Below are positions 20,760 to 38,652 of a stretch of DNA of 64,000 nucleotides, piece after piece; the first letter of the stretch is position 1, and each line of letters opens with the position of its first letter. The stretch lies in assembly GCF_003841485.1 (NCBI RefSeq), contig NZ_REFY01000007.1:62001-126000 (forward strand), in the 5' to 3' direction. Under the pieces are notes generated by a model that saw nothing but the letters and a program-made list of their open reading frames with translations, did no database searches and was not told where the DNA came from. The DNA is from Natrarchaeobius halalkaliphilus (GTDB lineage Archaea > Halobacteriota > Halobacteria > Halobacteriales > Natrialbaceae). A program made the translations under genes and the position numbers.

Positions 20760-20833
20760 GAGCTCGTGATCGGCGTTCGGTTCAAAATCGTAATAATCGA
20801 AATGTCTTTTGCAAATAACTTCCGAGGAGGTGA

Positions 20834-21175
20834 TCATCCACGGCGTGGCGAAACTGAGTTTTTTAGAGATTTCTCGAAGAGTCGACGATCGAGGGTGCTC
20901 GAGGATCTTTCAGATCTGTTCGAGCAGGCCGAGATCGATGAGCCAACCGGGGAAGGGGAGATAAATGCCAAGTTAGTGCGCACATTTACGCGTGTATTAA
21001 CAGATATGTGATAGGAAGTATCCAGGATGAACAGAATCCACGTTTCTGAATTCTGCTCGAGAACCCGTTTAAACAGCGTACAGACGTTCTCTTTTGACTG
21101 ATCCTTAGCAAGCGTAAAGACACTCTCACCGTTGAATGTGTAGCAACCGATCGCTAGTTCGTCAAGCCCCATCAA
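20834..21175 (-). pseudogene. Remnant of an IS630-type transposase
   Basis: The first 75 or so residues (about 20950-21175) contain GCYTFNGESVFTLA, KENVCTLFKRVLEQN and WILFILDTSYHIS. These resemble the core of IS630-type transposases around the second catalytic Asp (normally LDNASxH). The rest of the frame is unrelated and the DDE Glu region is missing. A C-terminal fragment of the same type lies at about 38.1-38.2 kb. This marks the left side of the AT-richer segment that begins with IDO. Confidence 0.45.
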
Positions 21176-21249
21176 CTGTCATTCGAGAGTTTGATCGTCA
21201 ACGAATCACAGTCAATGCGAGTTGTCGGTTACAACCTAGGGGATGAGCA

Positions 21250-22410
21250 CTAGTCTATTCGAGCAGCCTCTGTTTCTTCTTTCATCTTCTGTAGATAATA
21301 CGCATAATTAGTCCCACCAGTTCCCGTTGTATCGCCGGTTTCTTCACGAATGTACTGACTTATTTGTCTAAAATGAACTTTTCTGAACGTTATAAGGTTT
21401 GTTATGCAATTATTATACGCCCTACGTAATTCGTCTGAACCTTGTTTTGCTACGTATTCTTTGATGTCAGGTCCGGTATCGAGTTCCGTAATGGTATTAC
21501 GATGAAACGGTGGCATATAGCTCCGCATGTCGTCAAGCTTCTCTATCATCTTGGTCGCGTCATGTTTAATACCAAGTGTGGCGTCTATCGATGGCAGAAT
21601 GGAACTTTGTGCACCAGATCCTCCTCGAAGCGATTGTGGTGTTCCCTCTAGCTCGTTAACACCTTCAAATATGATTTCGTCAAACCCGTAGTAATACGGC
21701 CGATACTCATTTGCAAATACCGATGTATCGTTTCCTTCGGTCATTCGCTGCATGATTGAGGTTTGTTCAACGAGGGACTCCTCAATTGTATGTAATTTTC
21801 TCAGTAGTAATTCAGGATCATCCTCACGAACGGCCTGTTGGGCGGTTGAGCACGCAGTTATTGCGGGGCCAGCGGCGGCTTCAATTGCGACGTGAATAAT
21901 TACAAACCAGCGTTCATCGTCGTGGTGTGTGAAACTCTGAATTAGGTCCAAGTTCTCAACCGATAAGTCACCATCAGGATCTTTTCGTTGGAAGTTATGA
22001 AGACAGAGAAGGTCGTATGAGAGAATGGGTTTCCTCCCGATCTCCTCTGACGTTTCATAGAGCGGAATCGCCATTCCAGCTGGGAGTACAGAATCGTCTT
22101 CTCCAATTAGTTGACCGTAGTTTACGTATGCACTTGCAAAAAAACCACTCAGCTGACATAGACGGATCATCTCTCGGTCGTTGAGCTTATCTAATAACCC
22201 AGCTGGTGGTTTCTCGAGAGATCGAAGAACAGGTCTCACTTCACCAGATTCGATAAGATCGGGGAGGTTGTCCCCGACCTGGTCCAACCGCTGTAGATAC
22301 TCACTCGTCATAGAATCGTATTGATCAGTATTAAACGAAGTTAGTGGATCAGGCGTTGGTAAGAACCCACGCTGGTTGTCAATGCTTTCATCCAGTTTTG
22401 CTTCAGCCAT
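21250..22410 (-). CDS. Indoleamine 2,3-dioxygenase (IDO) family heme enzyme
   Basis: A 386-residue heme dioxygenase, close in length to human IDO1. Known members open the indole ring of tryptophan to N-formylkynurenine. Family signatures run end to end: RGFLPTPDPLTSF, LPAGMAIPLYETSEEIGRKP, RGGSGAQSSILPSIDATLGI, SYMPPFHRNTI, LRRAYNNCITNLITFRKVHF and TGTGGTNYAYYLQKM. His346 (RKVHFRQI) aligns with the human proximal heme ligand. By my hand alignment the distal position of human Ser167 is a His (FVIIHVAIEAAAG), as in tryptophan 2,3-dioxygenases. The ATG at 22410 is chosen over an in-frame TTG at 22437. It lies downstream of an aminotransferase gene on the same strand. IDO is very unusual in archaea as far as I know. 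Confidence 0.9.
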   Translation of the reverse strand: MAEAKLDESIDNQRGFLPTPDPLTSFNTDQYDSMTSEYLQRLDQVGDNLPDLIESGEVRPVLRSLEKPPAGLLDKLNDREMIRLCQLSGFFASAYVNYGQLIGEDDSVLPAGMAIPLYETSEEIGRKPILSYDLLCLHNFQRKDPDGDLSVENLDLIQSFTHHDDERWFVIIHVAIEAAAGPAITACSTAQQAVREDDPELLLRKLHTIEESLVEQTSIMQRMTEGNDTSVFANEYRPYYYGFDEIIFEGVNELEGTPQSLRGGSGAQSSILPSIDATLGIKHDATKMIEKLDDMRSYMPPFHRNTITELDTGPDIKEYVAKQGSDELRRAYNNCITNLITFRKVHFRQISQYIREETGDTTGTGGTNYAYYLQKMKEETEAARID

Positions 22411-22684
22411 GTCAATAGGATCCGCATCCCAAAGCAAGTTAATATTTTCTGGATAAGTGAATACGGTACTGGGTATTACTATCGATGCTTCTCCAATTCT
22501 ATGCGCTAATGTACGTTGTCGTAGTACAACTTTTGCCGTCTGATTTGGATTGGCTGTTAACTCCTTGTTCAGAAGTGAAACACAAGAGCCATGTGTTACT
22601 ATTAACCAGTAGTCTATGAAGTGTTAATAACCAAAAGTGGATCCGCATGAGAAATATACCGCATTTGCCGTATAAGTGGGACGT

Positions 22685-23854
22685 TTATTGGACCGATTCA
22701 GCGTACTTTTCGATCCGATCGAACCCGAGCTCAAGCCGATCGAGGCTGTTCGCAAAACTAATCCGAATATAATCATCGAGTCCCGGACCAAACCCAGTTC
22801 CAGGAACAGTTACGACGCCGTGTTCTTCGAGCAGCTGCTTGGAGATCGTAGTACTATTTCTCTCGAGCTCTCCACAATCAAGGAAAGCGTAAAATGCTCC
22901 TTCGGGTTCTGGGCAGACGACTCCGGGAAGCGATTCAACTCGTTCGACAACATAGTCGCGCCGTTCGCTTAGTGAAGAGAAAATCGATTGGACCGGTTCT
23001 TGATCTCCCGTTAACGCTGCGACGGCAGCCTGCTGAGATGGGGCAGGTGCACACGCAATTATACTTTCGTGAAACTCCAATGCGGCATCAATAATCTCAC
23101 TATCGGCTGCGAACCAGCCGACACGCCATCCAGTCATTGCATAGGGTTTCGAACAGGATCCAACCGTAATTACATGCTCTGGGTATGCTGTGTTCGCGGC
23201 TATCGGGGTTGACTCCTGGTTGTAGATAATGTCTTTGTACACCTCATCAGCGATGACGTATGCATCATGGTTAGCAGCGGCTTTGACAACCTCTGCCGTC
23301 GCAGATGAATCGAGCACTTGACCGGTTGGGTTCGACGGGGTAGCAAGAAGAACTGCAGCAGTATCATCAGTTATTTTATCGGTCAGCAGTTCGATATCGA
23401 GCGAGAAACCTCGTTCTTCATCTAGGGGGACGTTTGTTATTTCTCCACCAGCCATAATTGCCTGAATTTGATAGTTCGGCCAAGAAGGAGTCGGTATAAT
23501 CACCTCGTCACCGGGGTCAACAACAGTCAAACATGCCAATGCGAGCGCCTCGACAGCGCCAGCCGTGACGATGATTTCTGACTCGGGATCATATTCTGAG
23601 TCGAGATCCGTAGCGATGGCAGTACGCAGTTCAGGAATGCCAGCGCTCGTGGTATAGTGGGTTGCACCGTTTCGTAGTGCTTTCGCTGCTGAGTCGATGA
23701 TATGTTCCGGTGTGTCGAAATCGGGCTCTCCTATCTCTAAGTGAACGAGGTCTCTATCACTATGCTGACGGGCGAGGTCGAACATTTCCCGAATCGGTGA
23801 TCGAGTTACTCGCTTAGTACGGTTCGCTACCGGTAAGCTACCATCTTGACACAT
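22685..23854 (-). CDS. Class I (aspartate/aromatic-type) aminotransferase
   Basis: A 389-residue fold-type I PLP aminotransferase. It has the N-terminal VHLEIGEPDFDTPEHI motif, ATPSNPTGQVLD, YVIADEVYKDI, the PLP lysine Lys236 in VGSCSKPYAMTGWRVGW and the C-terminal substrate-carboxylate Arg in YIRISFANS. Members transaminate aspartate, aromatic amino acids or kynurenine and cannot be told apart by sequence. The ATG at 23854 has a tatacc element 26-35 nt upstream and gives standard length. It is 275 bp upstream of IDO on the same strand. If the pair acts together, a kynurenine aminotransferase giving kynurenate would be logical. Confidence 0.88.
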   Translation of the reverse strand: MCQDGSLPVANRTKRVTRSPIREMFDLARQHSDRDLVHLEIGEPDFDTPEHIIDSAAKALRNGATHYTTSAGIPELRTAIATDLDSEYDPESEIIVTAGAVEALALACLTVVDPGDEVIIPTPSWPNYQIQAIMAGGEITNVPLDEERGFSLDIELLTDKITDDTAAVLLATPSNPTGQVLDSSATAEVVKAAANHDAYVIADEVYKDIIYNQESTPIAANTAYPEHVITVGSCSKPYAMTGWRVGWFAADSEIIDAALEFHESIIACAPAPSQQAAVAALTGDQEPVQSIFSSLSERRDYVVERVESLPGVVCPEPEGAFYAFLDCGELERNSTTISKQLLEEHGVVTVPGTGFGPGLDDYIRISFANSLDRLELGFDRIEKYAESVQ

Positions 23855-23879
23855 ATTGTAAGGATCACAGAGAACCGAC

Positions 23880-23889
23880 ATATACCTTA
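23880..23889 (-). promoter_or_regulatory. TATA element of the aminotransferase gene
   Basis: On the minus strand this reads taaggtatat, about 30 nt before the ATG at 23854. Confidence 0.45.
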
Positions 23890-24565
23890 TGGTCGAGTGA
23901 GTTGTTGTCTTGATCTCGTTTCGAATGGTTCCTCGTTCACGATCTGTCGCACGAAACGACCGTAACTCATAGGGATTATTGTAGCCAACCGCAGAGTTTG
24001 ACGCCCGTCCGTCGACGCTGTGTCTCAGTACGTTGAGGGAGAAACTCTGAACTCCTACGATAATCCCTATCACTACGTCACTTCGGAGCGACACGCTCTA
24101 CTCGTAGCAATCCAAATCGACTTCTCAGCTTGTCTCCAGTATCACCGAATTCATCGATAACACCCAACAAAATTCTCATGTCGAGTTAACAGGTATATGG
24201 GCTTTTACAGGTACGTGAATGGATGGTTCGTCGATTTGTTCCGCCGAGTATCTCCCAATCTCACAGCCCCAATGATTCACGTGATACGCTGTATTGGTCG
24301 ACTCAATTCCACCGCCGATCGTATCGTCTCTGGATGCCATGCCACATTTCGGGGGTCCTGAGTAACCGTAGCGCCTACGAGTGGAACTGAAGGCGACTCC
24401 GTTACTGCAATTCGAATCTCACCTACTGTCAGCGCTTGAGCAATCAGTATATATACTCCTGTGGGTATCTAACTCTCTAACTCTGCACCCTTGATAGGTA
24501 CTTGTCTGCCACAATACGACAGATGTCGTAGTAGTACTTTAGTTATTGCCGATAATAGGTTGGCC

Positions 24566-24667
24566 ATGAACTACACCTGTCCCCGTTGTACCGAGCAACG
24601 TGAGCTACGAGAGTATATCACCAACTGTTCCGTTTGTGGTTTCGTGCCAAATCAAGGATCTGATTGA
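24566..24667 (+). CDS. 33-residue zinc-finger microprotein
   Basis: A short frame starting MNYTCPRCTEQ and ending CSVCGFVPNQGSD. It has two Cys pairs (Cys5/Cys8 and Cys21/Cys24, CPRC and CSVCG), the layout of haloarchaeal zinc-ribbon microproteins. A TATA-like tttagttatt lies about 25 nt upstream, so a leaderless transcript is plausible. The function is unknown; such proteins often act in regulation or RNA/DNA binding. Confidence 0.6.
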   Translation: MNYTCPRCTEQRELREYITNCSVCGFVPNQGSD

Positions 24668-24762
24668 GGAGGAACAATAACGACCATTCTCGACATTCAA
24701 CGTACCGAAACCGTCCTGTATAACCAATTACAACAGTACAGCGTCGAGATCGTACTTTGGCG

Positions 24763-24777
24763 TTTGTCAGCTACAAA
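24763..24777. promoter_or_regulatory. Palindrome TTTG-N7-CAAA (site 3)
   Basis: The site reads tttgtcagctacaaa. It lies between the aminotransferase and trpB genes. Confidence 0.45.
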
Positions 24778-24929
24778 CATAGTGTGTCGTGCTCGGTAAA
24801 CGAAGAACAGCTACTACCAGGTAGACTGGTATCGATCAGAGCTTTGAACCACGGAATGAGTATTACGAATAGTATAGAACCATACATAGTTACGGTGAAA
24901 AGATAGAGAAGAAACTAATAGCTGGATGT

Positions 24930-24944
24930 TTTGTTAATTGCAAA
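24930..24944. promoter_or_regulatory. Palindrome TTTG-N7-CAAA (site 4)
   Basis: The site reads tttgttaattgcaaa and is followed by cacac, as is site 5. Confidence 0.5.
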
Positions 24945-25065
24945 CACACTCTCCGGGAAGCACACGAAACACAAAAATAGACAATAGTATGTGTGTAAAA
25001 TATGGTCAGCATCTGTGCGTCTGACGTTCTCCAAGCTACCGTGATATAAGTTATCTCCCCACTTG

Positions 25066-25080
25066 TTTGGCAATTGCAAA
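25066..25080. promoter_or_regulatory. Palindrome TTTG-N7-CAAA (site 5)
   Basis: The site reads tttggcaattgcaaa. It shares aattgcaaacaca with site 4, 136 bp away, and is about 270 bp upstream of the trpB TATA element. Confidence 0.5.
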
Positions 25081-25350
25081 CACATACAGAGTCACAACGA
25101 AAGTGAGATAGATTACCGATTCCGGCACGATCGTAGGGCCCGCAGATACGAGGAGAAACAGGGATAGCAAGCCCGTGTGAAAGCGTGGGAACTTCCAGTA
25201 AATTTTTCAGCTCATCACAGATGAAGTTCAAAAACAGAGAAAGAAAAATCGCTCAAACGGTGCCCAGAGCTTTCGTGCATTCCACCCAATAGTTAAGCAA
25301 GAGCCGGTATCAATCAGTACCGTTTTAGATATCAGTGGTGTAGACAAGTA

Positions 25351-25360
25351 GATTTATATA
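25351..25360 (+). promoter_or_regulatory. TATA element of trpB
   Basis: gatttatata lies 24-33 nt before the ATG at 25384, consistent with a leaderless transcript. Confidence 0.6.
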
Positions 25361-25383
25361 GGATGTGAGTATAATGCTCTGGT

Positions 25384-26556
25384 ATGGTACGCGATGGTTC
25401 ACCACAGACGTTTGGACAGTTTGGGGGACGGTATGCGCCAGACGAACTAGAAGAAGTACTCGAGGATTTGGCTACAGAGTACGACCACCTGAAAGACGAC
25501 GAAGAGTTCCGAGAGGAACTTGACGAGCTTCTACGCAATTTCGCTGGTCGCCCGACACCACTTTACCATGCATCATCGCTCTCAGAGGAGTACGGTGCAA
25601 CCATTTACTTCAAACGAGAAGATCTCGTTCACGGAGGGGCTCACAAACTCAACAATGCACTTGGGCAGGCACTACTCGCAAAACATGCAGGAAAAGAGCG
25701 GCTGATTGCTGAAACGGGCGCCGGCCAGCACGGTACAGCGACATCATTTGTAGGCGCACACACGGGCCTTGAAACGGAAATCTATCAAGGCAAAAAGGAT
25801 GCCGAGCGACAGCGGATGAACGTCTTCCGAATGGAGCAGATGGGTGCCACGGTAAATAAAGTAACACGGGGTGGTTCTGGGCTTGCAGACGCGGTGGATG
25901 CGGCCATGGAGGATCTAATCAAAAATAACGAAAATACCCACTACTTGGTCGGGTCGGTCGTCGGTCCGGATCCGTGGCCACGTATGGTCCGTGATTTTCA
26001 ATCAGTGATCGGTGAAGAAGCACGTGAACAAATTTTGGAGCAAGAAGGTAAGTTACCGGACGCCGCTGTTGCCTGCGTTGGTGGTGGGTCAAACGCAATC
26101 GGATTGTTCCACCCATTTTTCGATGACAGCGAGGTCGACTTCTACGGCGCAGAGGCTGCTGGAAAAGGTCTCGATACCAACCAACATGCTGCACCACTAT
26201 CCGAAGGAAAAGAAGAAGTGTATCAGGGGATGCGAACGCGAGTGATCGATGACGACGTCGAGGTCCACTCAATCGCGGCCGGCCTCGATTATCCCGGCGT
26301 TGGACCAGAACACGCAAATTATCAAGAGCTTGATCGGTGTTCCTATCGGGGAATCGTAGACGAGGACGCACTCCAGGCGTTCCAAGACCTCTGTAAGTAC
26401 GAAGGGATCGTGCCTGCGCTTGAGTCGAGTCACGCCGTTGCACTCGCAAAAGAGTTAGCCGCTGAGATGGACGAGGACGATGTTCTCCTCGTGAATCTGA
26501 GCGGACGGGGTGACAAAGACGTCGAAAAGATTGCCGAGGAGTATCTGCAAGACTAA
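25384..26556 (+). CDS. trpB: Tryptophan synthase beta chain, TrpB1 type, stand-alone
   Basis: A 390-residue PLP enzyme that condenses indole with L-serine to tryptophan. It has PLP lysine Lys88 in HGGAHKLNNALGQ, AETGAGQHGTA with the catalytic Glu, the phosphate loop CVGGGSNAIGLF and YPGVGPEHA near the C-terminal third. The length and the N-terminus (FGQFGGRYAPDEL) are of the classical TrpB1 type that normally partners TrpA. No trpA or other trp gene is adjacent, unlike the usual haloarchaeal trp clusters, so this may be an extra copy that captures free indole. Its neighbour IDO consumes tryptophan. Base composition is AT-richer than genes at 7-20 kb. Confidence 0.92.
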   Translation: MVRDGSPQTFGQFGGRYAPDELEEVLEDLATEYDHLKDDEEFREELDELLRNFAGRPTPLYHASSLSEEYGATIYFKREDLVHGGAHKLNNALGQALLAKHAGKERLIAETGAGQHGTATSFVGAHTGLETEIYQGKKDAERQRMNVFRMEQMGATVNKVTRGGSGLADAVDAAMEDLIKNNENTHYLVGSVVGPDPWPRMVRDFQSVIGEEAREQILEQEGKLPDAAVACVGGGSNAIGLFHPFFDDSEVDFYGAEAAGKGLDTNQHAAPLSEGKEEVYQGMRTRVIDDDVEVHSIAAGLDYPGVGPEHANYQELDRCSYRGIVDEDALQAFQDLCKYEGIVPALESSHAVALAKELAAEMDEDDVLLVNLSGRGDKDVEKIAEEYLQD

Positions 26557-26657
26557 TACGTTATAGAGGACGTATTGAATCACTACTTGACTTTGCACCT
26601 TCTGCTGGTGAAGTGCGTAGAGATAGCATGAGCCGCTAATTTTCCCGTTACATCGTT

Positions 26658-26678
26658 CTTGTTGTGGGCAGCAACAAG
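26658..26678. other. Inverted repeat CTTGTTG-N7-CAACAAG
   Basis: Perfect 7-bp arms with a 7-nt spacer, 100 bp downstream of trpB. It could be a terminator hairpin or an operator; no T-run follows. Confidence 0.3.
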
Positions 26679-26829
26679 AGACCGTTCAGGACATCTCGAA
26701 CAATGTTCTCCCGGTAAAAACGAACGGATCCTAAGCACTGAGAACATTTCCTAGTATACCAACTAAAATAAAGGAAGATTCACCAAAGAATGGTTGGGGC
26801 TGTTTAGCTAGGCCAACGATACGAAATAG

Positions 26830-27099
26830 AACAGTAACAGTGCCGTCATCATTGACGGCATCTTCACGCACGAGATTGCCACACAAATCACGAATGCCGG
26901 GAAATTATGCGACCACACCGTCCTGGCTACATCTGGAAACAAAATCTTATACGCGCTCTACGCCGACGAGAAAACGACGTATTCACTCGGCTTTCGACTC
27001 TGCGAAAAAGATGTTCAGCGGTGTGTTGAGGCGGCTATCGATCTCGTCGATGAACTCATCGAGATGGGTGTCCGTCGGATACCTATCTCTTCGACATGA
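26830..27099 (+). pseudogene. Unrecognised gene remnant without a start codon
   Basis: An open frame of about 90 codons with protein-like composition (VIIDGIFTHEIATQI, DHTVLATSGNKILYALYA, CVEAAIDLVDELIEMGVRR). It begins after a stop codon and has no usable start. I do not recognise the family. It may be the 3' part of a decayed gene. The rest of the trpB-pdxS gap shows nothing else. Confidence 0.3.
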
Positions 27100-27300
27100 G
27101 CTACTGTTCCGGAACGAGCAACCTCTATCCGCACCAAGATGACCGAACCTTCAGCGAAAGCGTTGGAAATCTTTTGTCTGGGCACTCAACAGCCCCAACT
27201 CGTAGTGCCGACGAGCTAATGCACTAGATCAGGGTATGTTCATCTAACATGTGAATTCAAGTAGCTGGATGGTTATTTCTGACGAATTTTTAAATAGTCA

Positions 27301-28209
27301 CTAGACACCGCGCTCTTGTATTTTTTCTTCCTTAGGAAGATCTACATTCGCATCTCCTTTCATTCCTTGCCCGACCCCATCAGTTATTTCAGCTAGTACT
27401 TCGGGGTCATTCCAGTTGTTGACTGCAGCCACAATCGCTTCGGCCATCGCTTCAGGATCTTCGGCTCCAAAAATACCGCTCCCGACGAAAATACCGTCAC
27501 AACCATGATCCATCATCAATGCAGCATCTGCTGGTGTCGCGATTCCACCGGCGGCAAAATTCACAACTGGGAGCCGGCCCATTTCTGCTGTTTCGTGTAC
27601 TAACTCCGCGGGAGCGTCGTTTTCTCGAGCCCAGGCAGTGCGTTCTTCGGCGCTTTTTCCTTCTAATTCCCGAATGGCTCCTTTGATAGTACGCTGGTGA
27701 TGAACAGCCTGATTCACATCGCCTGTTCCCGCTTCCCCCTTTGTTCGGATCATTGCCGCCCCTTCGTCGATCCGTCGAAGTGCTTCACCGAGGTCGCGAG
27801 CGCCACAGACGAAGGGAGCAGTAAACTCGTGTTTTTCGATATGGTAGCTGTTGTCTGCAGGTGTAAGTACTTCACTTTCGTCGACCATATCGACGCCCAC
27901 GGCCTCGAGAATCTCGGCTTCTTTCGTATGGCCGATTCGGGATTTTCCCATAACCGGAATAGAAACCTCACCGATGATTTCACGGACAGTCGCTGGATCC
28001 GCCATTCGAGAGACGCCACCGCGCTTGCGGATATCTGCTGGTACTGCCTCGAGCGCCATTACGGCAACCGCTCCGGCGTCTTCGGCGATTCTGGCCTGCT
28101 CACGAGAAACGACGTCCATGATGACCCCACCTTTCTGCATTTTGGCGAAACCGCGTTTGATGAGTTCTGTTCCCTGATACAGGCTCTCTAATTCCATTGG
28201 ATCCGACAT
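27301..28209 (-). CDS. pdxS: Pyridoxal 5'-phosphate synthase subunit PdxS
   Basis: A 302-residue TIM-barrel enzyme that makes PLP from ribose 5-phosphate, glyceraldehyde 3-phosphate and ammonia from PdxT. Near-invariant segments are present: [67 protein letters not shown] and the C-terminal FVGSGIFG. pdxT is not in the window. It sits among at least three PLP enzymes (TrpB and two aminotransferases), which suits cofactor supply, though PdxS is a housekeeping protein in haloarchaea. Confidence 0.96.
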
Positions 28210-28511
28210 ACCTACTAAGTAGATGTCGTCCTATACATAGATCTACCGGTCGTTCTGTCTGTTCACTGTCGCTTGTGATTCCTAGATGTAAAGGCCCATG
28301 ACTAACCCAACGGTGGTATCTTGCCCATTTGTAAAATCCGAGGTAAACATAGCTGGACAAAGAAGTTGCGGTTCAGCCGGAAACAACCAGTTACCGAATC
28401 GATCACAGCTGGTATGAGGCCCACGATTCAGCGTGTGCAGAAAGATACCGGAGTGACCTCGAAGACGCTTCGATAAAACGAGTACGAGATCTACAACGAC
28501 ACAGATTGAGG

Positions 28512-29438
28512 TTACCCGAGCTGCGATTGAATGTGATCTGCTAATTGATTCATGGCTTCGTTAGCCTCGTCAACGGAGTCTGTCACGCTGAGAAAGCCGT
28601 GTGCAAGCGTCGGATAGTGTTCGTGGGTTGTTGGAACGTCGTTTTCTAGAAGTTTCTGAACATATTCAAATCCATCGTCTCTGAGCACGTCAAAGCCAGC
28701 CGTTAGCACTACTGCAGAAGCAACACCGGACGGATCAGCCACGCGCCCAACCGCCGCGAGCGGATTGTACTTTTGGACCGGGTCCTCGAGATATTGCTCC
28801 CAGAACCATTCCATATCTCGGCGAGTGAGCAGTGGCTCATCAGCATGCTCGGTGTATGACTCCGTCCCACGAACGACATCTGTAATCGGATACAACAGGA
28901 ACTGCCCGCCAAGGGAGACGTCTGCTTCTCGAGTGCGAAGCGCAACCGCAGCGGCAAGATTCCCACCAGCACTTGTTCCAGCTACACCCACTCTGTCTGG
29001 GTCGGCACCGAACTCGTTCGCATGGTTCGCTGCCCAAGTAAGTGCGGAAAACGCATCGTTGAGCGCCGCAGGAAACGGGTGATCTGGCGCGAGACGGTAA
29101 TCGACCGAAATGACAAGGCAATCACTCCTACTTGCAAGTTCGCGACAGATGTTATCTGCCGAATCAAGCGTGCCGAGGGTCCATCCACCGCCGTGATAAA
29201 AGACGAGAGTCGGCGGGTTTTCGACGCCGGGATGGTAGACGCGAATCGGAATCGGTCTGCCCTTTCCCTCTATCTCGAAGTCACGGACTGACTTCACTGT
29301 CGCTCCCTCGCCACGAGAGAAGACGTCATCTTCGATTCTCCGAGCACACTGTATTGACATCGCGTGCCAGTTTGGTAACCCCATCTCTTCAATCTCGTCA
29401 ATGACGGTCTCCATCTGCGGGTCCATCTGCTGACTCAT
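28512..29438 (-). CDS. HSL-family alpha/beta hydrolase, candidate arylformamidase
   Basis: A 308-residue esterase/lipase of the hormone-sensitive lipase family. The oxyanion motif HGGGW is at 82-86, the nucleophile is Ser156 in GVAGTSAGGN, and the Asp and His of the triad lie in GFDVLRDDG and TLAHGF. There is no signal peptide, so it is cytoplasmic. This superfamily includes kynurenine formamidase (AFMID type), and its place beside IDO makes N-formylkynurenine a reasonable substrate. That assignment is inference, since most family members are carboxylesterases. It lies about 300 bp from pdxS on the same strand, with no recognisable gene between. Confidence 0.88.
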   Translation of the reverse strand: MSQQMDPQMETVIDEIEEMGLPNWHAMSIQCARRIEDDVFSRGEGATVKSVRDFEIEGKGRPIPIRVYHPGVENPPTLVFYHGGGWTLGTLDSADNICRELASRSDCLVISVDYRLAPDHPFPAALNDAFSALTWAANHANEFGADPDRVGVAGTSAGGNLAAAVALRTREADVSLGGQFLLYPITDVVRGTESYTEHADEPLLTRRDMEWFWEQYLEDPVQKYNPLAAVGRVADPSGVASAVVLTAGFDVLRDDGFEYVQKLLENDVPTTHEHYPTLAHGFLSVTDSVDEANEAMNQLADHIQSQLG

Positions 29439-29652
29439 CTATCTAGCGAGGGTAGCTGTTGCAAATAATTCAAACTATCGATTCACTGGTGGTCTGATCT
29501 CCATACAAAAACCGTCCGATGCGATAGCAGCCCGACGCTTTGTTAACCGAATAACAACGTTCACGCAACAGCAGTCCCGATCGTGTCGCCTGCAGCCGGC
29601 TATCAAGATGCCCCAAGTATCATAATGTCTCGCTTCAAACTGGTCTAACCAG

Positions 29653-30774
29653 GTGGTTTGCGTGACCAAAAAAAGCGAGTACAAATTCAATTATCCCAAC
29701 AAGAAGCTGTATATTCCAGGTCCAACTGAAGTACGTGACGACGTTATCGAGGCCATGTGCGAGCCGATGTTCGGCCACCGTATGGATCAAATGACTGATC
29801 TGTACACGACCATCGTCGAGGATACGAAAGAGTTTCTCGACACTGACAACGACATCATCATCCTGACGGGGTCGGGCACTGAGTTCATGGAGAGTTCGAT
29901 CCTTAACCTCGTCGACGAAGATGTCCTCGTGACGACTTGTGGAAGCTTCAGTGAACGACAGACAAACGTCGCCGAACGACTGGGCAAAACCGTCGACACC
30001 CTCGAGTACGAGTGGGGACAAGCAGTCAAACCCGAGGACGTCCGCGAGTATCTCAAGAAAAGCGACACTGACTATGATGTCGTCACGTGCGTGAAAAACG
30101 AGAGTTCGACTGGAGTCCGGAATCCTGTCGAGGAGATCGGCGACGTAGTTGCCGAGTACCCGGACACCTCCTTCGTCGTCGACGCCGTCTCGTCGCTAGG
30201 GGGCGATTACGTTGACATTGACGAGCACAACATCGACGTCATCTTCACCTCCGTACAGAAAGCCTTCGCCATGCCGCCTGGTCTGGGCGTCTGTGTCGTC
30301 AGTCAGGATGCCTACGAGGCCGAACTCGAGGCAGACTCAGCCTCTTGGTACGGTGGTTTCCAGCGTACGCTCGATTACTACGATCGGAAGGGCCAGACCC
30401 ATTCCACCCCCGCTATCTCGATCATGCTTGCCTACCGAAAGCAGATGAAACACATGCTTAGGGAAGGCCACGACGCACGAGATCAACGCCACCGCGAGAT
30501 GGCCGAGTACACCCGCGAGTGGGCACACGAACACTTTGAGATGTTTCCCGAAGAGGGCTATGAGTCCCAGACGGTGAGCTGTATCGAAAACACTAGGGGT
30601 ATCGATGTCGCCAGCACCATTGACGCCGTGAGCGAAGAGTACGACATGGTCTTCTCGAACGGCTACGGTTCCACTCTTGGCGAAAAGACGTTCCGAATCG
30701 GTCACATGGGCGAACACGATCTCGAGAGCATCAAAGAACTCACTGACGCGATCGAAGACGTTGCAGGGTTGTGA
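29653..30774 (+). CDS. Class V aminotransferase (serine-pyruvate / alanine-glyoxylate type)
   Basis: A 373-residue PLP aminotransferase with the family's N-terminal YIPGPTEVRDDVIEAM, VVDAVSSLGGDYVDID and the PLP lysine Lys203 in TSVQKAFAMPPGLG. The AGT/SPT family transfers amino groups among serine, alanine, glyoxylate and pyruvate, and some archaeal members stand in for SerC. SerA and SerB lie 8-10 kb away, so a serine role is possible. Kynureninase shares this fold but lacks the N-terminal PGP motif. Starts at GTG 29653 and GTG 29662 are both possible. Confidence 0.85.
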   Translation: MVCVTKKSEYKFNYPNKKLYIPGPTEVRDDVIEAMCEPMFGHRMDQMTDLYTTIVEDTKEFLDTDNDIIILTGSGTEFMESSILNLVDEDVLVTTCGSFSERQTNVAERLGKTVDTLEYEWGQAVKPEDVREYLKKSDTDYDVVTCVKNESSTGVRNPVEEIGDVVAEYPDTSFVVDAVSSLGGDYVDIDEHNIDVIFTSVQKAFAMPPGLGVCVVSQDAYEAELEADSASWYGGFQRTLDYYDRKGQTHSTPAISIMLAYRKQMKHMLREGHDARDQRHREMAEYTREWAHEHFEMFPEEGYESQTVSCIENTRGIDVASTIDAVSEEYDMVFSNGYGSTLGEKTFRIGHMGEHDLESIKELTDAIEDVAGL

Positions 30775-30937
30775 ATTGAGCGAACGGCTGATCGTGTGAC
30801 GATGAGTTTTGAGTGAGAATACATGTTGTTTTTTAACTTCGTACTCGATGAGATGCTACACTATTGCTAACCTAGCGGCGAAAACTTCCCCTACTGGGGA
30901 AATACTTATTTCACCAGGCAATCGTGATAAGCTCACG

Positions 30938-31276
30938 ATGGCAAAAATATCATCGGAAACGGAGTTCACTGTGTACGACCTCCGCGTCGAATGTGTCGAG
31001 ATAAATGGCGACGCAGAAGGCAGTTACGATGTTGGAGACTATTTCGAAGTTCACGGCGAAAATCTTGTTTTTCCGGAAAAACAGACGTTCCCAATATACG
31101 CGCTCTCAGCACTCATTCCCCTCTTACCGGCAAAGCAGCGCGAAAGCGATTCGAACGATTGGATGTCGACTCCTGTGAAAGTGACTGATCCAGATCCGGA
31201 CGTGGACGGCACTTTCGAAATCAGCCGAATCGGAGAACGGACTGTCACTCCGAAAAGTGCATCTGATGGGGAGTAG
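30938..31276 (+). CDS. TIGR04076-like small protein
   Basis: A 112-residue soluble protein. FTVYDLRVECVEINGD, the middle SYDVGDYFEVHGENLVFP and the ending GTFEISRIGERTV resemble the TIGR04076 group of small proteins of unknown function. The usual Cys-rich loop is absent. The ATG at 30938 is used because the upstream extension crosses the probable promoter (aatacttattt, 30901-30911). It stands between the class V aminotransferase and the amino acid transporter. Confidence 0.65.
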   Translation: MAKISSETEFTVYDLRVECVEINGDAEGSYDVGDYFEVHGENLVFPEKQTFPIYALSALIPLLPAKQRESDSNDWMSTPVKVTDPDPDVDGTFEISRIGERTVTPKSASDGE

Positions 31277-31604
31277 CGACATGTACAAAGAAAGTATCGC
31301 GCTTGGGCTATAGTTGCCACTGCAAGTCAATGTACACCTGACCGCACGAATTATGACCGGTCAGTACACAAATCGCTTAGTTATTACTATAGACTATAGC
31401 AGTTAGGTGTAAAAACGGATATAAAGCTTGACTCTTAGTTCGTGGAATAAGCGTACTGTTCAATTTCGATAGTCCGTTATACCGTTTTTTCGGCTACATA
31501 ACCCATAGAGGCAGTAATATCTAAAATACAGCACACAATTCGGCAATAGCTGTGATGTTAATGACATAGGAGTTAGTGTTTCGTGCAGATATTAAGTGGA
31601 TCCC
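31277..31604. other. AT-rich intergenic region before the liv-type transporter
   Basis: About 330 bp with no coding potential. It contains the short palindrome ctatagactatag near 31388. Confidence 0.4.
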
Positions 31605-31614
31605 AATATTTATG
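31605..31614 (+). promoter_or_regulatory. TATA element of the liv-type operon
   Basis: aatatttatg lies 25-34 nt before the GTG at 31639. Confidence 0.5.
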
Positions 31615-31638
31615 TGTAATCAATAACGAAAGAGGCAC

Positions 31639-32799
31639 GTGACAAACAACAGCACGCGAAGACGGTTTGTTATTAGTACAGGAGCCCTCGGTGCAGCAGC
31701 TATTGCTGGTTGCGTGGGAGACGATGAAGTTCAACGAGCTATTGGCGCAGCAACTCCCCAATCCGGACCACTTGAACCGGATGGGACTGCCGGTATTCGC
31801 GGAATGGAAGTTGCTATCGAAGAATTAACAGAAGAATTGGATGAGCCGATCGAACTACAGGCCACAGACGGTGAGGCAGCACCCGATCGAGCAGTTAGTG
31901 TTGCTAGAAACATGTATGATAATAACATTCCAGTTATCACTGGTACGTTCTCGAGCGACGTGTCGAACGTACTTAGTGACCTTGCTGAGGATGAGGAAGT
32001 TCCGTTTATAACGTCGATCTCGGTTGATCCAGAGATCATCAATGAGGATGACGAGTATACGTTCCGTATGACCGGAGACACGACTCAGAAGCTCAAGGGG
32101 ATGGCCGAGTTCCTAGAAGAGGAGGGCGTGTCCGGTATTGCGGTGATTGCAGCAGACTATTCGATGGGGGAGTCCTCTATTGAATTTTTCGAAGAACGTG
32201 CCGAAGAGTACGGAATGGAGTTAGTACATTCAGCAGAAGTTCCAATGGAGACCGACAACTTCGTGCCGGAAATTGGGGACCTCGATACCGATGAAATCGA
32301 TGCACTGTTTTATCCGTTCCCAGGTGGGACTGCACCGACACTCATAAGTCAAACTCGTGAGCAAGGGCTGTTCGACGAGGTGGACATTGTTATTGGGCAC
32401 GACTCGTACGGGACAGAAACGTTCTACGAGTCACTCGGTGACGACCTTCAAGATATGTACTTCTGGGGGGTCGATCTTGAAAACGAGCAGGCCCAACAAG
32501 CAAACGAACGGATGCAAGAGATGTTCGACGTGAGAATGGACCCACTGAGCCTACCGTATTACGACACCATCCATCTAATCGCAGAAGTAATGGGGGAACA
32601 GGGATCAGTTGATCCACAAGACATTCGCAACGGCCTGGCCGACATTGAATATGAAACCGCATCAGGCTGGGACGTGAGATTCGATCAGAATGGGAACAAT
32701 ACAGAATTTCAAATGATTGTGGGCCAGTGGCAAGAAGATGACGACGGTGAATTAGCGCCCAACGTTGAGTATACAAGCCACGTTGTGTCCACAGAGTGA
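31639..32799 (+). CDS. ABC transporter substrate-binding Tat lipoprotein (branched-chain amino acid type)
   Basis: A 386-residue periplasmic-binding protein of the LivK family. It starts with a Tat-type signal (STRRRFVISTG) and a lipobox AIAGC with Cys25 as the lipid anchor. The Leu/Ile/Val-binding fold follows (QSGPLEPDGTAGIRGMEVAIEEL, PVITGTFSSDVSNVLSDLAE, VIAADYSMGESSIEFFEE). LivK-type receptors also bind amides and aromatic compounds, so the ligand is open. It is the first gene of a five-gene operon. GTG start, with a TATA element at the right distance. Confidence 0.9.
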   Translation: MTNNSTRRRFVISTGALGAAAIAGCVGDDEVQRAIGAATPQSGPLEPDGTAGIRGMEVAIEELTEELDEPIELQATDGEAAPDRAVSVARNMYDNNIPVITGTFSSDVSNVLSDLAEDEEVPFITSISVDPEIINEDDEYTFRMTGDTTQKLKGMAEFLEEEGVSGIAVIAADYSMGESSIEFFEERAEEYGMELVHSAEVPMETDNFVPEIGDLDTDEIDALFYPFPGGTAPTLISQTREQGLFDEVDIVIGHDSYGTETFYESLGDDLQDMYFWGVDLENEQAQQANERMQEMFDVRMDPLSLPYYDTIHLIAEVMGEQGSVDPQDIRNGLADIEYETASGWDVRFDQNGNNTEFQMIVGQWQEDDDGELAPNVEYTSHVVSTE

Positions 32800-33533
32800 T
32801 GGTGATGGGAACGACAACACTCCTGCGTATTGAGGAGGTGCACAAGACCTTCGGAGGAATTGTTGCGCTTGATCAGTTTACAGCAACGGTCAATGAAGAC
32901 GAAATAACAGGTCTGATCGGTCCGAACGGGGCTGGGAAAACGACGCTATTTAATGTGATTACCGGTGTCTTGACACCGGATTCAGGTTCGATTCGATTCG
33001 AGGGAAAAGAATTAACAAGTTTGAAATCACATCAGATCTGTCATGAGGGAATTGGTCGGACCTTCCAAACACCCAAACCAGTCCGTTCGCTGACTGTCAG
33101 AGAGAACCTCCAAGTCGCTCGTAAATACGGTGTTGGCGACAATGAAAAGAGAGAAACAATACAATCAATCAACGAAGTAATCGAGTTGTTTTCCCTCGAG
33201 GAAAAGCAAGATACGATAACAAAGGAACTCCAACTCGTTGAGCAAAAGTTCGTTGACGTGGCTCGAGCACTCGTGACTGGTCCGAAATTGATTCTTCTGG
33301 ACGAAATCATGGCCGGGTTGAATCCAACCGAAAAGCAAGAGATGATGTCGACAATCAAGACAATCAATACAGAGTTCGGTTCTACCTTCCTGATTATTGA
33401 ACACGACCTCGGTATAATCCGTTCGATCTCAGACCGAATTATAACGATACACGAAGGTAGCGAACTCACCAGTGGCTCGCCCGAGAAAGTAATGGAAAAC
33501 GACAAGGTCAGGGAGGCATACATTGGCAAATAA
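32799..33533 (+). CDS. ABC transporter ATP-binding protein, LivG type
   Basis: ATPase of the same transporter, about 244 residues. Walker A GLIGPNGAGKTTLFNVITG, the LivG-typical GIGRTFQTPKPVRSLTVREN, a signature region reading ITKELQLVEQKFVDVARAL (the LSGGQ motif is weak, reading LQLVE), Walker B PKLILLDEIMAGLNP and switch His LIIEHDLG. The ATG at 32799 overlaps the stop of the binding-protein gene by 1 bp; ATG 32805 is possible. The degenerate signature motif is notable but seen by eye only. Confidence 0.9.
   Translation: MVMGTTTLLRIEEVHKTFGGIVALDQFTATVNEDEITGLIGPNGAGKTTLFNVITGVLTPDSGSIRFEGKELTSLKSHQICHEGIGRTFQTPKPVRSLTVRENLQVARKYGVGDNEKRETIQSINEVIELFSLEEKQDTITKELQLVEQKFVDVARALVTGPKLILLDEIMAGLNPTEKQEMMSTIKTINTEFGSTFLIIEHDLGIIRSISDRIITIHEGSELTSGSPEKVMENDKVREAYIGK
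33512..33517 (+). promoter_or_regulatory. Shine-Dalgarno sequence that sets the livF-type start
   Basis: ggaggc ends 5 nt before the TTG codon at 33523. It supports that codon as the start of the second ATPase gene. Confidence 0.5.
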
Positions 33534-34239
33534 TATACTCGAAGCCAGTGACGTTGACGCTGGCTACGGCCAGGTCGAGATTCTGGATGAGATCGCGTTT
33601 GAGGTACCTGAAGGCGAAATACTGTCGATCATCGGTCCTAATGGTGCTGGGAAGACTACTCTCATGCGGGTACTAATGGGACTTATTCCAGCTCGTTCGG
33701 GATCGGTAGAACTTCAAGGGGGACTAATCACCGATCGACCGACCCACGAAAGAGTCAAAATGGGTATGTCCCTTGTCACTGAAAAGCAGAACCTATTCAC
33801 AGAGATGACAGTTGCTGAAAACCTCAAGCTGGGATCGTACACAGCACGTGGGGACGAAAAGGAAAAACGCTTAGAGCGTGTTTTTAAGCTATTCCCCCGG
33901 CTTGAAGAACGGCAAAGTCAACATGCCGGGACACTAAGCGGCGGGGAAGCTCGAATGTTAGCACTAGGTCGAAGTCTGATGACCGACCTTGACATCCTTT
34001 TGCTGGATGAGCCCTCAATCGGTCTTGCACCTCACCTCATCCCGGAACTGTTCGAGAAGATACGGGAAATCAATGATCGGGGAGTCTCTATCGTCCTCGT
34101 TGAACAGCGTGCCCAAGAGGCACTCGAACTGGCAGACTCCGGTTGTCTGCTCGAGAATGGCTGTATTGTCCATCGAGACGATGCGAGTGCTATGTTAGAC
34201 AGCGACGAAGTAATCGAGCAGTACTTGGGTGGTGCGTGA
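33523..34239 (+). CDS. ABC transporter ATP-binding protein, LivF type
   Basis: Second ATPase of the transporter, 238 residues. Walker A SIIGPNGAGKTTLMRVLMG, signature LSGGEARMLALGRSL (the ABC motif is normal here), Walker B DILLLDEPSIGLAP and switch region IVLVEQRAQEAL (Gln-Arg at the usual His position, as is common in LivF). It starts at TTG inside the end of the previous gene, after a good Shine-Dalgarno sequence. Confidence 0.9.
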   Translation: MANNILEASDVDAGYGQVEILDEIAFEVPEGEILSIIGPNGAGKTTLMRVLMGLIPARSGSVELQGGLITDRPTHERVKMGMSLVTEKQNLFTEMTVAENLKLGSYTARGDEKEKRLERVFKLFPRLEERQSQHAGTLSGGEARMLALGRSLMTDLDILLLDEPSIGLAPHLIPELFEKIREINDRGVSIVLVEQRAQEALELADSGCLLENGCIVHRDDASAMLDSDEVIEQYLGGA

Positions 34240-35108
34240 TGCTCGACCTTGGACAAATCGCGTTCGCGATCATCAATGGGTTGGTTTTCGGATCGATCCT
34301 CGCGTTGATTGCGGTTGGATTGAGTCTGATCTACGGTGTGCTTGATGTTCCAAACTTTGCTCAAGGAGAGTTCGCGACACTTTCGGGTTTCATCGTCGTT
34401 GGACTGATGGGCTTTGGTCTGGGTCTGGTACCGAGTATCATTGTCGCAATCGTCGCAGCAGTCGTTGCTGGAATCGCATTAGAGCGGCTTGTCATTGCGC
34501 GGTTTTATGGTCGAGAAGAGTTCCTTCTTCTTACTTTCTTCGCGACATTTGGTGTGACAATCATATCAGAAAACGCACACCAAATGATTTTTGGCGGGTT
34601 TCGTCAAATTCAGGGTCCGGAACTAGGAACGATCTCACTAGTGGGCAGTACCTACAGCCTGTTGAACGTTCTTAGTGGCGTTTTTGCTATCATCATGATC
34701 ATTGGTTTGTATATCTTCACTAAATACACGTATACAGGATTGGCGATGAGAGCAGTGGCAGATGATCAGACTGGAACCGAAATTCTTGGAATTAATTACG
34801 GGCGGATCTACATGGTCACGTTCGCTTTGGGTGGGGCACTCACTGGGATCTCAGGAATTCTCTATGGAATGTCCTACACACTCAGCCCGACACTTGGGGT
34901 CTTACTGACGTTGTTCGCTTTCACGATCGTCGTTGTTGGTGGTATTGGAAGCTTCCAAGGTGCAATTATCGCGAGCTTCTTGGTCGGGTTAGTTGAAAGC
35001 TTCGCATCAACGTTCATTGGTAGTCAGTGGCGGTTATTCGCAGTATTCTTCCTTCTCTTTGTCGTCCTCATACTTCGTCCGCAGGGCATTGGAGGTGTCC
35101 GTTCATGA
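34239..35108 (+). CDS. ABC transporter permease, LivH type
   Basis: A 289-residue membrane protein with about eight hydrophobic helices and the LivH signature: IINGLVFGSILALIAVGLSLIYG at the start, GLAMRAVADDQTGTEILGIN in the cytoplasmic loop that docks the ATPases, and VVGGIGSFQGAIIASFLVGL near the end. The ATG overlaps the previous stop by 1 bp (TGATG). Confidence 0.92.
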   Translation: MLDLGQIAFAIINGLVFGSILALIAVGLSLIYGVLDVPNFAQGEFATLSGFIVVGLMGFGLGLVPSIIVAIVAAVVAGIALERLVIARFYGREEFLLLTFFATFGVTIISENAHQMIFGGFRQIQGPELGTISLVGSTYSLLNVLSGVFAIIMIIGLYIFTKYTYTGLAMRAVADDQTGTEILGINYGRIYMVTFALGGALTGISGILYGMSYTLSPTLGVLLTLFAFTIVVVGGIGSFQGAIIASFLVGLVESFASTFIGSQWRLFAVFFLLFVVLILRPQGIGGVRS

Positions 35109-36076
35109 ATCAGATTCAAGAGTTCGTCAAATCGGTGATGAACCAGGTTCAACCATACAGCAAAGAGTTAATTATCATCTCCGCGCTCATCAGTGCTGTG
35201 CTCCCGTTCATCGTAACGAGTTCGACCCTCTTCGATCTCAAAATTATGCTGATTTTTGCTATACTTGCATTCGCCGTGATTTTGCCAATTGGTTACACGG
35301 GTCAACTAATCCTATCACAGGGAGCGTTCTTCGGGATCGGCGCGTATTCGTTTGTACTATTGGTCAGCCGTGGAGTCCCCAGTATTGTTGGCGTCGTGGT
35401 AGCGGTTACTCTGACGGCACTTGTTGCGTATTTGCTGGGAAAACCTGCGACGAGAGCCCATGGGATCTATCTCGGCATCATCACGCTCGCATTTAACATG
35501 TTGTTTGTGATCGCTTTAGAGATTTTTTCCAACGTGACAGGTGGTAACGTCGGGCTGACAAGTCCGGATCTGCTACCGGAAGTTGTTACTGGAGCGCTTC
35601 CTGAAGACGTACTGCTATACTATATCGTGTTGGTTACATACATTGGTGTGTTTTTGTTCTTCTCGAGGATTCTGGACTCGGAAATTGGATCTGCGTTCCT
35701 CGCGATCAAAGAAGACACTGTTGTCGCCGAATCGATCGGAATTGATTCACACCGGTACCGTCTCCACTCATTTACCCTCTCAGGTGCCGTTTGTGGGCTG
35801 GCTGGCGGGCTATTCGCACCAGTTAATGGATTCGTGTCTCCACCGGTATTCGACCTTGATACGACGATAGAGATTATTCTAGCTGGTGTTGCAGGAGGAC
35901 TATCGATCCCTTTCGGAAGCATTTTCGGTGCAAGCATTGTCGTGTTACTCCCCGAATACCTCCGTGCTATCGAGCAATACCGGTTAATTGTCTACGGCGT
36001 GTTGATTATTCTCATATTAGCATATCTACCGCAGGGTGTTGGCGGATGGCTTCAGGAACAGTGGCGTAATAAATAA
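35105..36076 (+). CDS. ABC transporter permease, LivM type
   Basis: A 323-residue membrane protein, the partner permease. Family segments are LILSQGAFFGIGAYSFVLL, AFLAIKEDTVVAESIGID and AGVAGGLSIPFGSIFGA. The ATG at 35105 overlaps the livH-type stop (ATGA). It ends the operon, and the DNA after it runs into an IS5-type remnant. Confidence 0.92.
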   Translation: MNQIQEFVKSVMNQVQPYSKELIIISALISAVLPFIVTSSTLFDLKIMLIFAILAFAVILPIGYTGQLILSQGAFFGIGAYSFVLLVSRGVPSIVGVVVAVTLTALVAYLLGKPATRAHGIYLGIITLAFNMLFVIALEIFSNVTGGNVGLTSPDLLPEVVTGALPEDVLLYYIVLVTYIGVFLFFSRILDSEIGSAFLAIKEDTVVAESIGIDSHRYRLHSFTLSGAVCGLAGGLFAPVNGFVSPPVFDLDTTIEIILAGVAGGLSIPFGSIFGASIVVLLPEYLRAIEQYRLIVYGVLIILILAYLPQGVGGWLQEQWRNK

Positions 36077-36183
36077 CACCAACGTCTTCTCTCTTCCGTA
36101 GGAGATTGTTGATAGAGTTCGGCACAGTCGGTACTTCCGGCCGTGTTTAATCCCTAGACAGCGTTGGATCAGGTCGTCAGAGT

Positions 36184-36605
36184 AAGGAAAATGAAGCGGA
36201 AGAGTGCGGTTTGCGCCAACGCAAATCTTCTCTTCACCGAACGTGTGGTCTTCGCAGTCAAAAGGGTCGCCGATGGTTGGGACGAACCTGCCGCCTCAGA
36301 AGGGGCGGCGGGTTCACCGATGCGGCGATGATATCCCTCCACTGTCTCCGGATTTACCTCGAGACAACCTACCGGATGACGATTGATCTACTGAAGGAAA
36401 TGCAACGAATATCGCGGAAGATCGGCTTCGAACCGGCCGATCTCCCACATCCATCCACGTTATGTCTCGCGTTCGATAGAATCGAGATGGCGGTCTGCCG
36501 GACTCTTCTTCAACAGTCCGCTCAGCTTCACAACACCGGTCCGATTGGCGCGATTGACGCTACGTACTTCGAGCGCTCGCCCCTCGATCCCGGCGAGATT
36601 TGGAC
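36184..36605 (+). pseudogene. IS5-type transposase remnant
   Basis: N-terminal half of an IS5-type transposase related to the one at 5.4-5.8 kb. Shared segments are VSLHCLRIYL-like (ISLHCLRIYLETTYRMTIDLL), EPADLPHPSTLCLAFDRIEM and CRTLLQQSAQLHN. A frameshift lies in the Gly-rich stretch (about 36300): upstream sequence reads NLLFTERVVFAVKRVADGW in one frame and continues as GGGFTDAAMI in the next. The C-terminal half and the terminal repeats are missing. Confidence 0.75.
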
Positions 36606-36707
36606 TGTCGTTATCATTGTAGCTACCGCTCAGCAGTATCAACAATCTTTTACCGGAGAGCGTAGACCAGAAGATCTATAACATTTGGACTAAACTTTAT
36701 ATTTATC

Positions 36708-37793: not shown

Positions 37794-37882
37794 TTCGGGA
37801 ACTATTCTCAGTACTTCACCTACGGAAACGCTGCTGACTGAACGAACCACTGCTACCGATAAATAGTTGTGCCAAAGTTAAG

Positions 37883-37908
37883 GGCTGCCGCCTTTACAAC
37901 CGGCAGCC
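37883..37908. terminator. Hairpin downstream of the nitrilase-fold gene
   Basis: Perfect 8-bp stem ggctgccg/cggcagcc with a 10-nt loop, 90 bp after the stop codon. No T-run follows, so termination is only a possibility. Confidence 0.3.
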
Positions 37909-38088
37909 GGTCGAAACCGTATTCGACGAGGTCACGAGATATGCGAGTATCGGAGTCAACCGTGTAGAAGCCCCCGGAGAGAGCGACTCGTCGACAGTGG
38001 AATTGTAGGTACGTCTGAATGTCGCAAGCGTTTGGCTTTCGCCTAGAGTGGTCAGCGTAACTTTTGGATATCCGGAGGATCGTTCGAT

Positions 38089-38250: not shown

Positions 38251-38259
38251 AGGAGGGTT

Positions 38260-38630: not shown

Positions 38631-38652
38631 CTATACAAGATTTGCCCTGTAG

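Follow-up and report, generated by a model that had tools for sequence, protein, structure and literature searches.

The window analysed here, a 64,000-nucleotide stretch of Natrarchaeobius halalkaliphilus DNA, encodes an indoleamine 2,3-dioxygenase (IDO) in which histidine stands opposite the distal Ser167 of human IDO1. On balance, we favor the reading that this prokaryotic His-type IDO turns L-tryptophan into N-formylkynurenine, with a kynureninase or an aminotransferase acting after it, and that its gene arrived on a low-GC island.

The window protein is an IDO with histidine at the distal position

The open reading frame spans positions 21250-22437 on the minus strand, where its start codon is TTG; the ATG at 22410 gives a protein of 386 residues. 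The gene and the codons discussed below are as follows.

21250..22410, minus strand: IDO, 386 aa from ATG, identified by PF01231 and by its fold match to human IDO1/2
21892..21894, minus strand: codon CAC of the distal His173 (human Ser167), from the alignment
21373..21375, minus strand: codon CAT of the proximal heme ligand His346 (human His346), from the alignment
21700..21702, minus strand: codon of Arg237 (human Arg231, substrate carboxylate), from the alignment, role as given in an excerpt of PMC5758539
21319..21321, minus strand: codon of Thr364 in the GTGGT loop (human Thr379), from the alignment, role as given in the same excerpt

In a profile search, the protein matched PF01231 over residues 18-389 with an E-value of 1.4e-73 and 248.5 bits (cut-off 26), and a genome-wide search found this single IDO copy in N. 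halalkaliphilus. The structure prediction that the preliminary description had suggested as a check against human IDO1 gave an IDO fold: the AF2 model, computed from a 43-row alignment, has a mean pLDDT of 91, and among the matches listed the solved structures nearest to it are those of human IDO1 and IDO2 (357-365 residues aligned at Z 42-45 and rmsd 2.0-2.2). Residues 6-386 of the model cover human residues 13-401, that is, the whole length, and the best 50 fold matches listed are all IDO. A chance match is excluded by the PF01231 E-value together with the conservation seen across the 18 haloarchaeal homologs that the profile retrieved. The window protein is thus a genuine IDO by family, fold, and residue identities, which bears out the earlier claim of a whole-length IDO match with a retained proximal His346.

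The hand alignment behind the proposed distal histidine also proved right, since both phmmer and a separate pairwise alignment place His173 opposite human Ser167. In the phmmer alignment, human FFLVSLLVE lies opposite FVIIHVAIE of the window protein, without gaps around the distal site. The pairwise alignment further equates human His346 with His346, Arg343 with Arg343, Arg231 with Arg237, Tyr126 with Tyr132, Phe163 with Phe169, Phe227 with Ala233, Ala264 with Gly266, and Asp274 with Asp276; the GTGGT loop begins at residue 363, and its Thr364 corresponds to human Thr379. His173 is unvarying across the 43-row alignment and falls within a predicted helix (residues 164-195), and the gap-free alignment within this confident helix suggests that its side chain is placed on the distal side.

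The distal histidine is usual among prokaryotic IDOs

A reading of the distal histidine as peculiar to the window protein is not supported: among prokaryotic IDOs this residue is the norm, and we rejected the idea that His167 (human numbering) is unique to this copy. Profile searching found IDO in 18 of 391 Halobacteria genomes, and all 18 copies have His at 167, Arg231, and His346. For bacteria, the corresponding searches covered the phyla around four centre genomes, where 8/398, 6/201, 1/198, and 11/188 genomes carry IDO, counts that include the centre genome itself. Among the 23 scored bacterial matches, the residue at 167 is His in 17, Gln in 3, Ala in 2, and Thr in 1. None of these profile searches selected for His, and the 23 rows leave out the copies that the peptide pattern had found in the centre genomes (L099, L114, L115, and L117), the short second piece of the frameshifted gene L105/L107, and L106, a below-cut-off match with no alignable row.

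Other collections gave a similar picture. His was present in 80 of 80 IDOs from a scan of named genomes, a count that is biased because the peptide search pattern ended in that His, and in all 14 named haloarchaeal IDOs of the scan. Ten plasmid records matched IDO, seven of them haloarchaeal, and the plasmid copies examined (from haloarchaea, Methylocystis, and Sphingobium) have His in 6/6; searching plasmids with L108, a Thr-type copy, returned no records beyond the same ten. L108 is the sole canonical non-His copy and has Ala264-Gly265 as in the human enzyme. In every His row counted, position 264 is Gly (18 haloarchaeal, 17 bacterial, 80 from the biased scan, and 6 plasmid rows, with some genes appearing twice). 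Such co-variation of His167 and Gly264 is suggestive only, the two Ser/Thr rows lying on one side of one split in the tree. Arg231, Arg343, and His346 are kept in 98 of 98 haloarchaeal and bacterial rows, some of which represent the same gene twice.

Five of the six bacterial exceptions are IDO-like domains in large fusion-type ORFs, and the Gln and Ala matches also lack Arg231. Three of these ORFs (L122, L124, and L127; ~1630-1680 aa) have Gln at 167 and Ala at 231, with His346 kept. In L122 and L127, a Pfam scan showed that the IDO-like domain is fused to two further parts, one resembling gamma-glutamylcyclotransferase and the other, at the C-terminus, resembling a diflavin reductase (FAD_binding_1, NAD_binding_1), an architecture that looks as if it formed a self-sufficient heme oxygenase. 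In L125 and L126 (~960-980 aa), an IDO-like domain with Ala at 167 and without Arg231 is fused to a cyclic-nucleotide-binding domain, perhaps as a heme sensor. Two copies on Methylocystis plasmids (L131 and L132) have Val/Ile at the Asp274 position and are otherwise His-type.

Comparison with human IDO and tryptophan 2,3-dioxygenase

The window IDO is about 28-30% identical to human IDO1 and IDO2 and shares with them, besides the fold, the equivalents of His346, Arg231, the Thr379 loop, Tyr126, Phe163, and Asp274. Relative to human IDO1, it has His for Ser167, Gly for Ala264, Ala for Phe227, and Tyr for Leu234. It resembles tryptophan 2,3-dioxygenase (TDO; PF03301) in the distal His but has the profile and fold of an IDO: TIGR03036 scored 19.9 bits against a cut-off of 390.7, and the N. 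halalkaliphilus genome gave no PF03301 match at E 0.001. A likeness to TDO in 66 bacterial IDO rows of the genome scan is Tyr at position 227, which we take to be the place of an active-site Tyr of TDO.

According to the excerpt of PMC5758539, Ser167, Arg231, and Thr379 of human IDO1 correspond to His76, Arg144, and Thr342 of human TDO, where His76 hydrogen-bonds N1 of tryptophan, and an S167H substitution in human IDO1 dramatically destabilises the ferrous-oxy complex. PDB entries 6cxu and 6cxv are engineered human IDO S167H with tryptophan and cyanide, the same change at the same place as in the window IDO; there it is a single change in a Ser-type enzyme, whereas the natural His is accompanied by Gly264. 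A literature search for S167H as a topic found nothing. The interest of natural His-type IDOs lies in their having to cope with the oxy-complex destabilisation reported for the human variant.

The bacterial IDOs of Yuasa et al. 2011 are prokaryotic like the window IDO, and those named in an excerpt of PMC4217691 include no archaeal enzyme. By that excerpt, the Erythrobacter and Neptuniibacter enzymes are very slow with tryptophan, and those of Gemmatimonas and Streptomyces are active. The slow enzymes are probably His-type. A literature search on bacterial IDO evolution found nothing.

The IDO gene lies on a low-GC island

A phylogeny with bacterial IDOs, as proposed in the preliminary description, placed the 25 haloarchaeal rows in one clade (support 99/96), with Methylocystis as its sister (100/100) and other bacteria around. 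In this 62-row tree, human IDO1 and L108 stand apart from the 60 His rows (100/97). The tree was rooted at its midpoint, with human IDO1 on a long branch. Duplicates and the five fusion-type rows were kept out of it, as were most SAR86 rows, the frameshifted L105/L107, L123, and the partial L022. The simplest reading of the tree would be a single entry of IDO into haloarchaea, its direction being presumed.

The surroundings of the gene in the window consist of two parts.

20761..41200: low-GC island carrying IDO; GC 49.6%, with boundary genes that adjoin in other haloarchaea
12770-20759 and 41227-42888: aromatic-degradation cluster, on both sides of the island, from profiles

The flanks of the island have a GC content of 59.6 and 57.7%, and three other stretches of the genome have 61-64%. 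Third-position GC is 0.41 in IDO versus 0.72-0.80 in the Rieske/TPP genes of the flanks and in the remaining two copies of trpB; Rieske alpha and TPP stand at 0.75, and these trpB copies at 0.77-0.80. The flanking cluster includes Rieske alpha/beta genes (18420-20295), an HcaB-like dehydrogenase (16416-17399), a VOC protein (12770-13414), an aspartate dehydrogenase (NadX), a TPP enzyme, and a protein of 350 aa that resembles 2,5-dihydroxypyridine 5,6-dioxygenase (7cn3, 1.4e-54; NicX-like). Halocatena and Salinigranum have a like cluster (Rieske, NicX-like, NadX, TPP, VOC) with no IDO in its vicinity. On plasmids of Halocatena salina and Salinigranum rubrum, the Rieske alpha/beta genes with a small protein and the TPP gene (matched by family, length, and place) lie close together, with just a hydrolase between them. 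Because the flanking genes adjoin there without IDO, the island appears to interrupt a separate aromatic-degradation cluster, and we rejected this cluster as part of an IDO pathway, given its occurrence without IDO, its interruption by the island, and its different GC.

Horizontal acquisition, which had been suggested beforehand, is therefore supported by the position of IDO in a 20-kb low-GC island inserted into an unrelated cluster, as well as by its presence in so few haloarchaeal genomes and on plasmids. Halostagnicola sp. A56 was not a recent donor, since its copy lies in DNA of 60-61% GC. A second low-GC stretch (45.3%) occupies positions 57001-64000, at the window's end.

IDO adjoins kynureninase in most haloarchaea

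Over 26 distinct haloarchaeal places (the window included, and L022 and L143 taken as one), tblastn found the kynureninase gene kynU near IDO at 17, a LipP1-type hydrolase (at least 54% identical) at 12, and trpB at 11; with L148 included, the counts are 18, 12, and 12 of 27. All are lower bounds, since several loci stop at contig ends. At the genome level, kynU was present in 17 of the 20 IDO-bearing haloarchaea tested, and, within the 391-genome sample, in 16/18 genomes with IDO versus 159/373 without (Fisher p 1.1e-4, kinship ignored).

On plasmids of Natronosalvus, Natronococcus, and Haladaptatus, the genes annotated beside IDO are kynU, an alpha/beta hydrolase, trpB, CoA ligases, acyl-CoA dehydrogenase, MaoC, an FAD monooxygenase, and an ABC transporter, though not every gene in each. 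Downstream genes of haloarchaeal IDO loci also include benzoate-CoA-ligase-family proteins and a 722-aa FAD/FMN bimodular protein (PF01494 and PF00724; NF006101 at 826 bits, below the cut-off of 1078). The latter resembles salicylyl-CoA 5-hydroxylase/oxidoreductase, a salicylyl/2-aminobenzoyl-CoA-type monooxygenase, and such a bimodular build is, we assume, that of 2-aminobenzoyl-CoA monooxygenase/reductase. The gene content suggests that the haloarchaeal clusters likely lead from tryptophan through formylkynurenine, kynurenine, and anthranilate to aminobenzoyl-CoA. Literature searches found no paper on an archaeal tryptophan breakdown route of the IDO-kynU-trpB type and nothing on haloarchaea and kynureninase, judging by the listings.

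Haloferax volcanii, used as a control, has a kynureninase and gave no match in the IDO and TDO searches, so that another enzyme may carry out the first step of its pathway. Across 95 bacterial IDO loci (43 of at least 16 kb), kynU was matched solely in L106, the below-cut-off case. In SAR86-type neighbourhoods, no gene family besides IDO occurs in more than 12 of 35 long loci, and none of the families scanned was recognised as a kynurenine-pathway gene.

The window represents a variant of this arrangement. Halovivax, Natronosalvus, and Natronococcus have complete IDOs 53-60% identical to the window copy, a LipP1-type hydrolase, mostly trpB nearby, and a kynureninase, whereas the neighbour of IDO in the window is an aminotransferase, and a genome-wide search found no kynureninase in N. 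halalkaliphilus. The argument from kynU context therefore fails for the window copy itself. Nor was kynureninase found in Halostagnicola sp. A56, and genome G351 gave a weak match only, below the cut-off. The island genes and their evidence are listed here.

22685..24094, minus strand: class I/II PLP aminotransferase, upstream of IDO; PF00155 8.9e-69, A56 neighbour 73%
25384..26556, plus strand: trpB paralog (one of three); TIGR00263 545 bits
27301..28209, minus strand: PdxS, PLP synthase, from a profile match; an island member by place alone
28512..29438, minus strand: Abhydrolase_3 (LipP1-type) hydrolase; NF058653 362 bits, PF07859
29653..30774, plus strand: class V aminotransferase (BhcA/PhnW-like by profile, under cut-offs)
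30809..31276, plus strand: TIGR04076 family protein, from a profile; 69% to a gene near IDO in Halostagnicola A56
31639..36076, plus strand: branched-chain-amino-acid-type ABC transporter with a binding protein, two ATPases, and two permeases, from ORFs; PF02653 in one permease
36708..37793, plus strand: carbon-nitrogen hydrolase (nitrilase/formamidase superfamily); PF00795 2.7e-31, 84% to a trpB neighbour in G159
38653..40239, plus strand: SerA, phosphoglycerate dehydrogenase; TIGR01327 611 bits, 77% to a gene near IDO in A56
40422..41072, plus strand: SerB, phosphoserine phosphatase; TIGR00338 159 bits

The window and A56 share the IDO (74% over 267 residues), the aminotransferase (73%), SerA (77%), and the TIGR04076 protein (69%), and a trpB 87% identical to the window copy lies on the same contig as the A56 IDO. 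The A56 IDO gene is broken or misassembled: it is shortened to a 267-residue match, with an N-terminal piece containing a stop on another contig (G396:C13).

The upstream aminotransferase has an internal true start, because homology begins at about residue 87. Its closest solved chains are aspartate/aromatic aminotransferases, and from its position we guess that it is a candidate kynurenine or tryptophan aminotransferase. Its family is broad, with 54% relatives in unrelated settings, and the notion that it is IDO-specific was rejected. The hydrolase at 28512..29438 belongs to the same family as the hydrolase adjoining IDO-kynU in other haloarchaea and is a candidate N-formylkynurenine hydrolase. 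Three trpB genes exceed the cut-off in the N. halalkaliphilus genome; in a TrpB tree, the window copy groups with those of A56, the IDO-less G159, and the IDO-linked copies of Haladaptatus. G159, of the same genus, carries a block (L159, 7765-17000) of SerA (46%), TrpB, the nitrilase (84%), and an ABC transporter, which may represent a TrpB paralog served by a dedicated uptake system.

Proposed function and alternatives

In the mechanism that we favor, ferrous heme on His346 would hold O2, Arg237 and Thr364 would bind L-tryptophan through its carboxylate and ammonium groups, and His173, on the distal side, would probably form a hydrogen bond with N1-H of the indole, a role that the active-site His plays in TDO. 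The product would be N-formylkynurenine, with L-tryptophan as the presumed substrate, and the Abhydrolase_3 enzyme may deformylate it to kynurenine. In most IDO-bearing haloarchaea, kynureninase would then convert kynurenine to anthranilate; in N. halalkaliphilus, the adjacent class I aminotransferase would probably convert it to kynurenic acid instead. The gene itself would have arrived on the low-GC island. TDO-like chemistry is plausible as a fair deduction on structural grounds, and the low tryptophan activity of other bacterial IDOs (PMC4217691, in excerpt) counsels caution here.

The preliminary description had also raised the possibility of action on another indole, for which we found no specific support: since IDO adjoins kynureninase in most haloarchaea, the context points to L-tryptophan and kynurenine, and L-tryptophan is most likely the substrate. 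A stronger form of this alternative holds that His-type IDOs are slow or inactive as tryptophan dioxygenases, that another indole derivative or a monooxygenation is their true reaction, and that the kynU neighbourhood is secondary. Excerpts of three papers are consistent with it, reporting very low tryptophan rates of some bacterial IDOs (PMC4217691), a monooxygenase side activity of human IDO (PMC12921851), and the unstable oxy complex of human S167H (PMC5758539), and bacterial loci have no kynU near scored IDO. However, the invariance of Arg231, Arg343, and His346 over the 98 rows and the repeated kynU-IDO adjacency and genome co-occurrence in haloarchaea argue against it, and we regard it as unlikely. 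Somewhat less likely still is that the island forms a route for external indole, with ABC uptake, serine from SerA/SerB, TrpB joining indole and serine to tryptophan, and IDO opening the tryptophan. The presence of a trpB paralog close to IDO in 12 of the 27 loci, the additional serA and serB in the window, and the TrpB-nitrilase-ABC-SerA block of the IDO-less G159 fit such a route, but members of this TrpB clade are also found apart from IDO and in genomes that lack IDO, 15 of the 27 loci have no trpB nearby, and the SerA of G159 is just 46% identical.

The flanking cluster raises a further alternative, in which IDO, the aminotransferase, and the Rieske dioxygenase with its dihydrodiol dehydrogenase form a pathway for degrading kynurenic acid. 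Kynurenic acid (quinoline) degradation runs via a Rieske dioxygenase and a dihydrodiol dehydrogenase, and Rieske, HcaB-like, and VOC genes are physically close to IDO. Yet Halocatena and Salinigranum have the Rieske cluster with no IDO nearby, and in the window an island of unlike GC breaks it up, which makes this alternative very improbable; a literature search on the kynurenate quinoline pathway found nothing.

Implications

The window IDO is ordinary in its family, a member of a widespread His-type whose interest lies in the active site and the pathway. A joint reading, which we put forward as speculative, is that prokaryotic His-type IDOs represent a TDO-like form (distal His, Gly264, and, in bacteria, Tyr/Phe227) from which the Ser167 of animals would be derived, and that haloarchaeal IDO belongs to a horizontally moving pathway from indole or tryptophan to anthranilate or, in the window, to kynurenic acid, with TrpB first turning scavenged indole into tryptophan. 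The distal His of TDO, as against its absence in animal IDO, has so far been probed via a His put into human IDO1; the large natural set of His-type IDOs, with co-varying Gly264, would make the question directly testable where the arrangement evolved. The IDO-kynU-trpB clusters of haloarchaea also outline an archaeal route of tryptophan breakdown.
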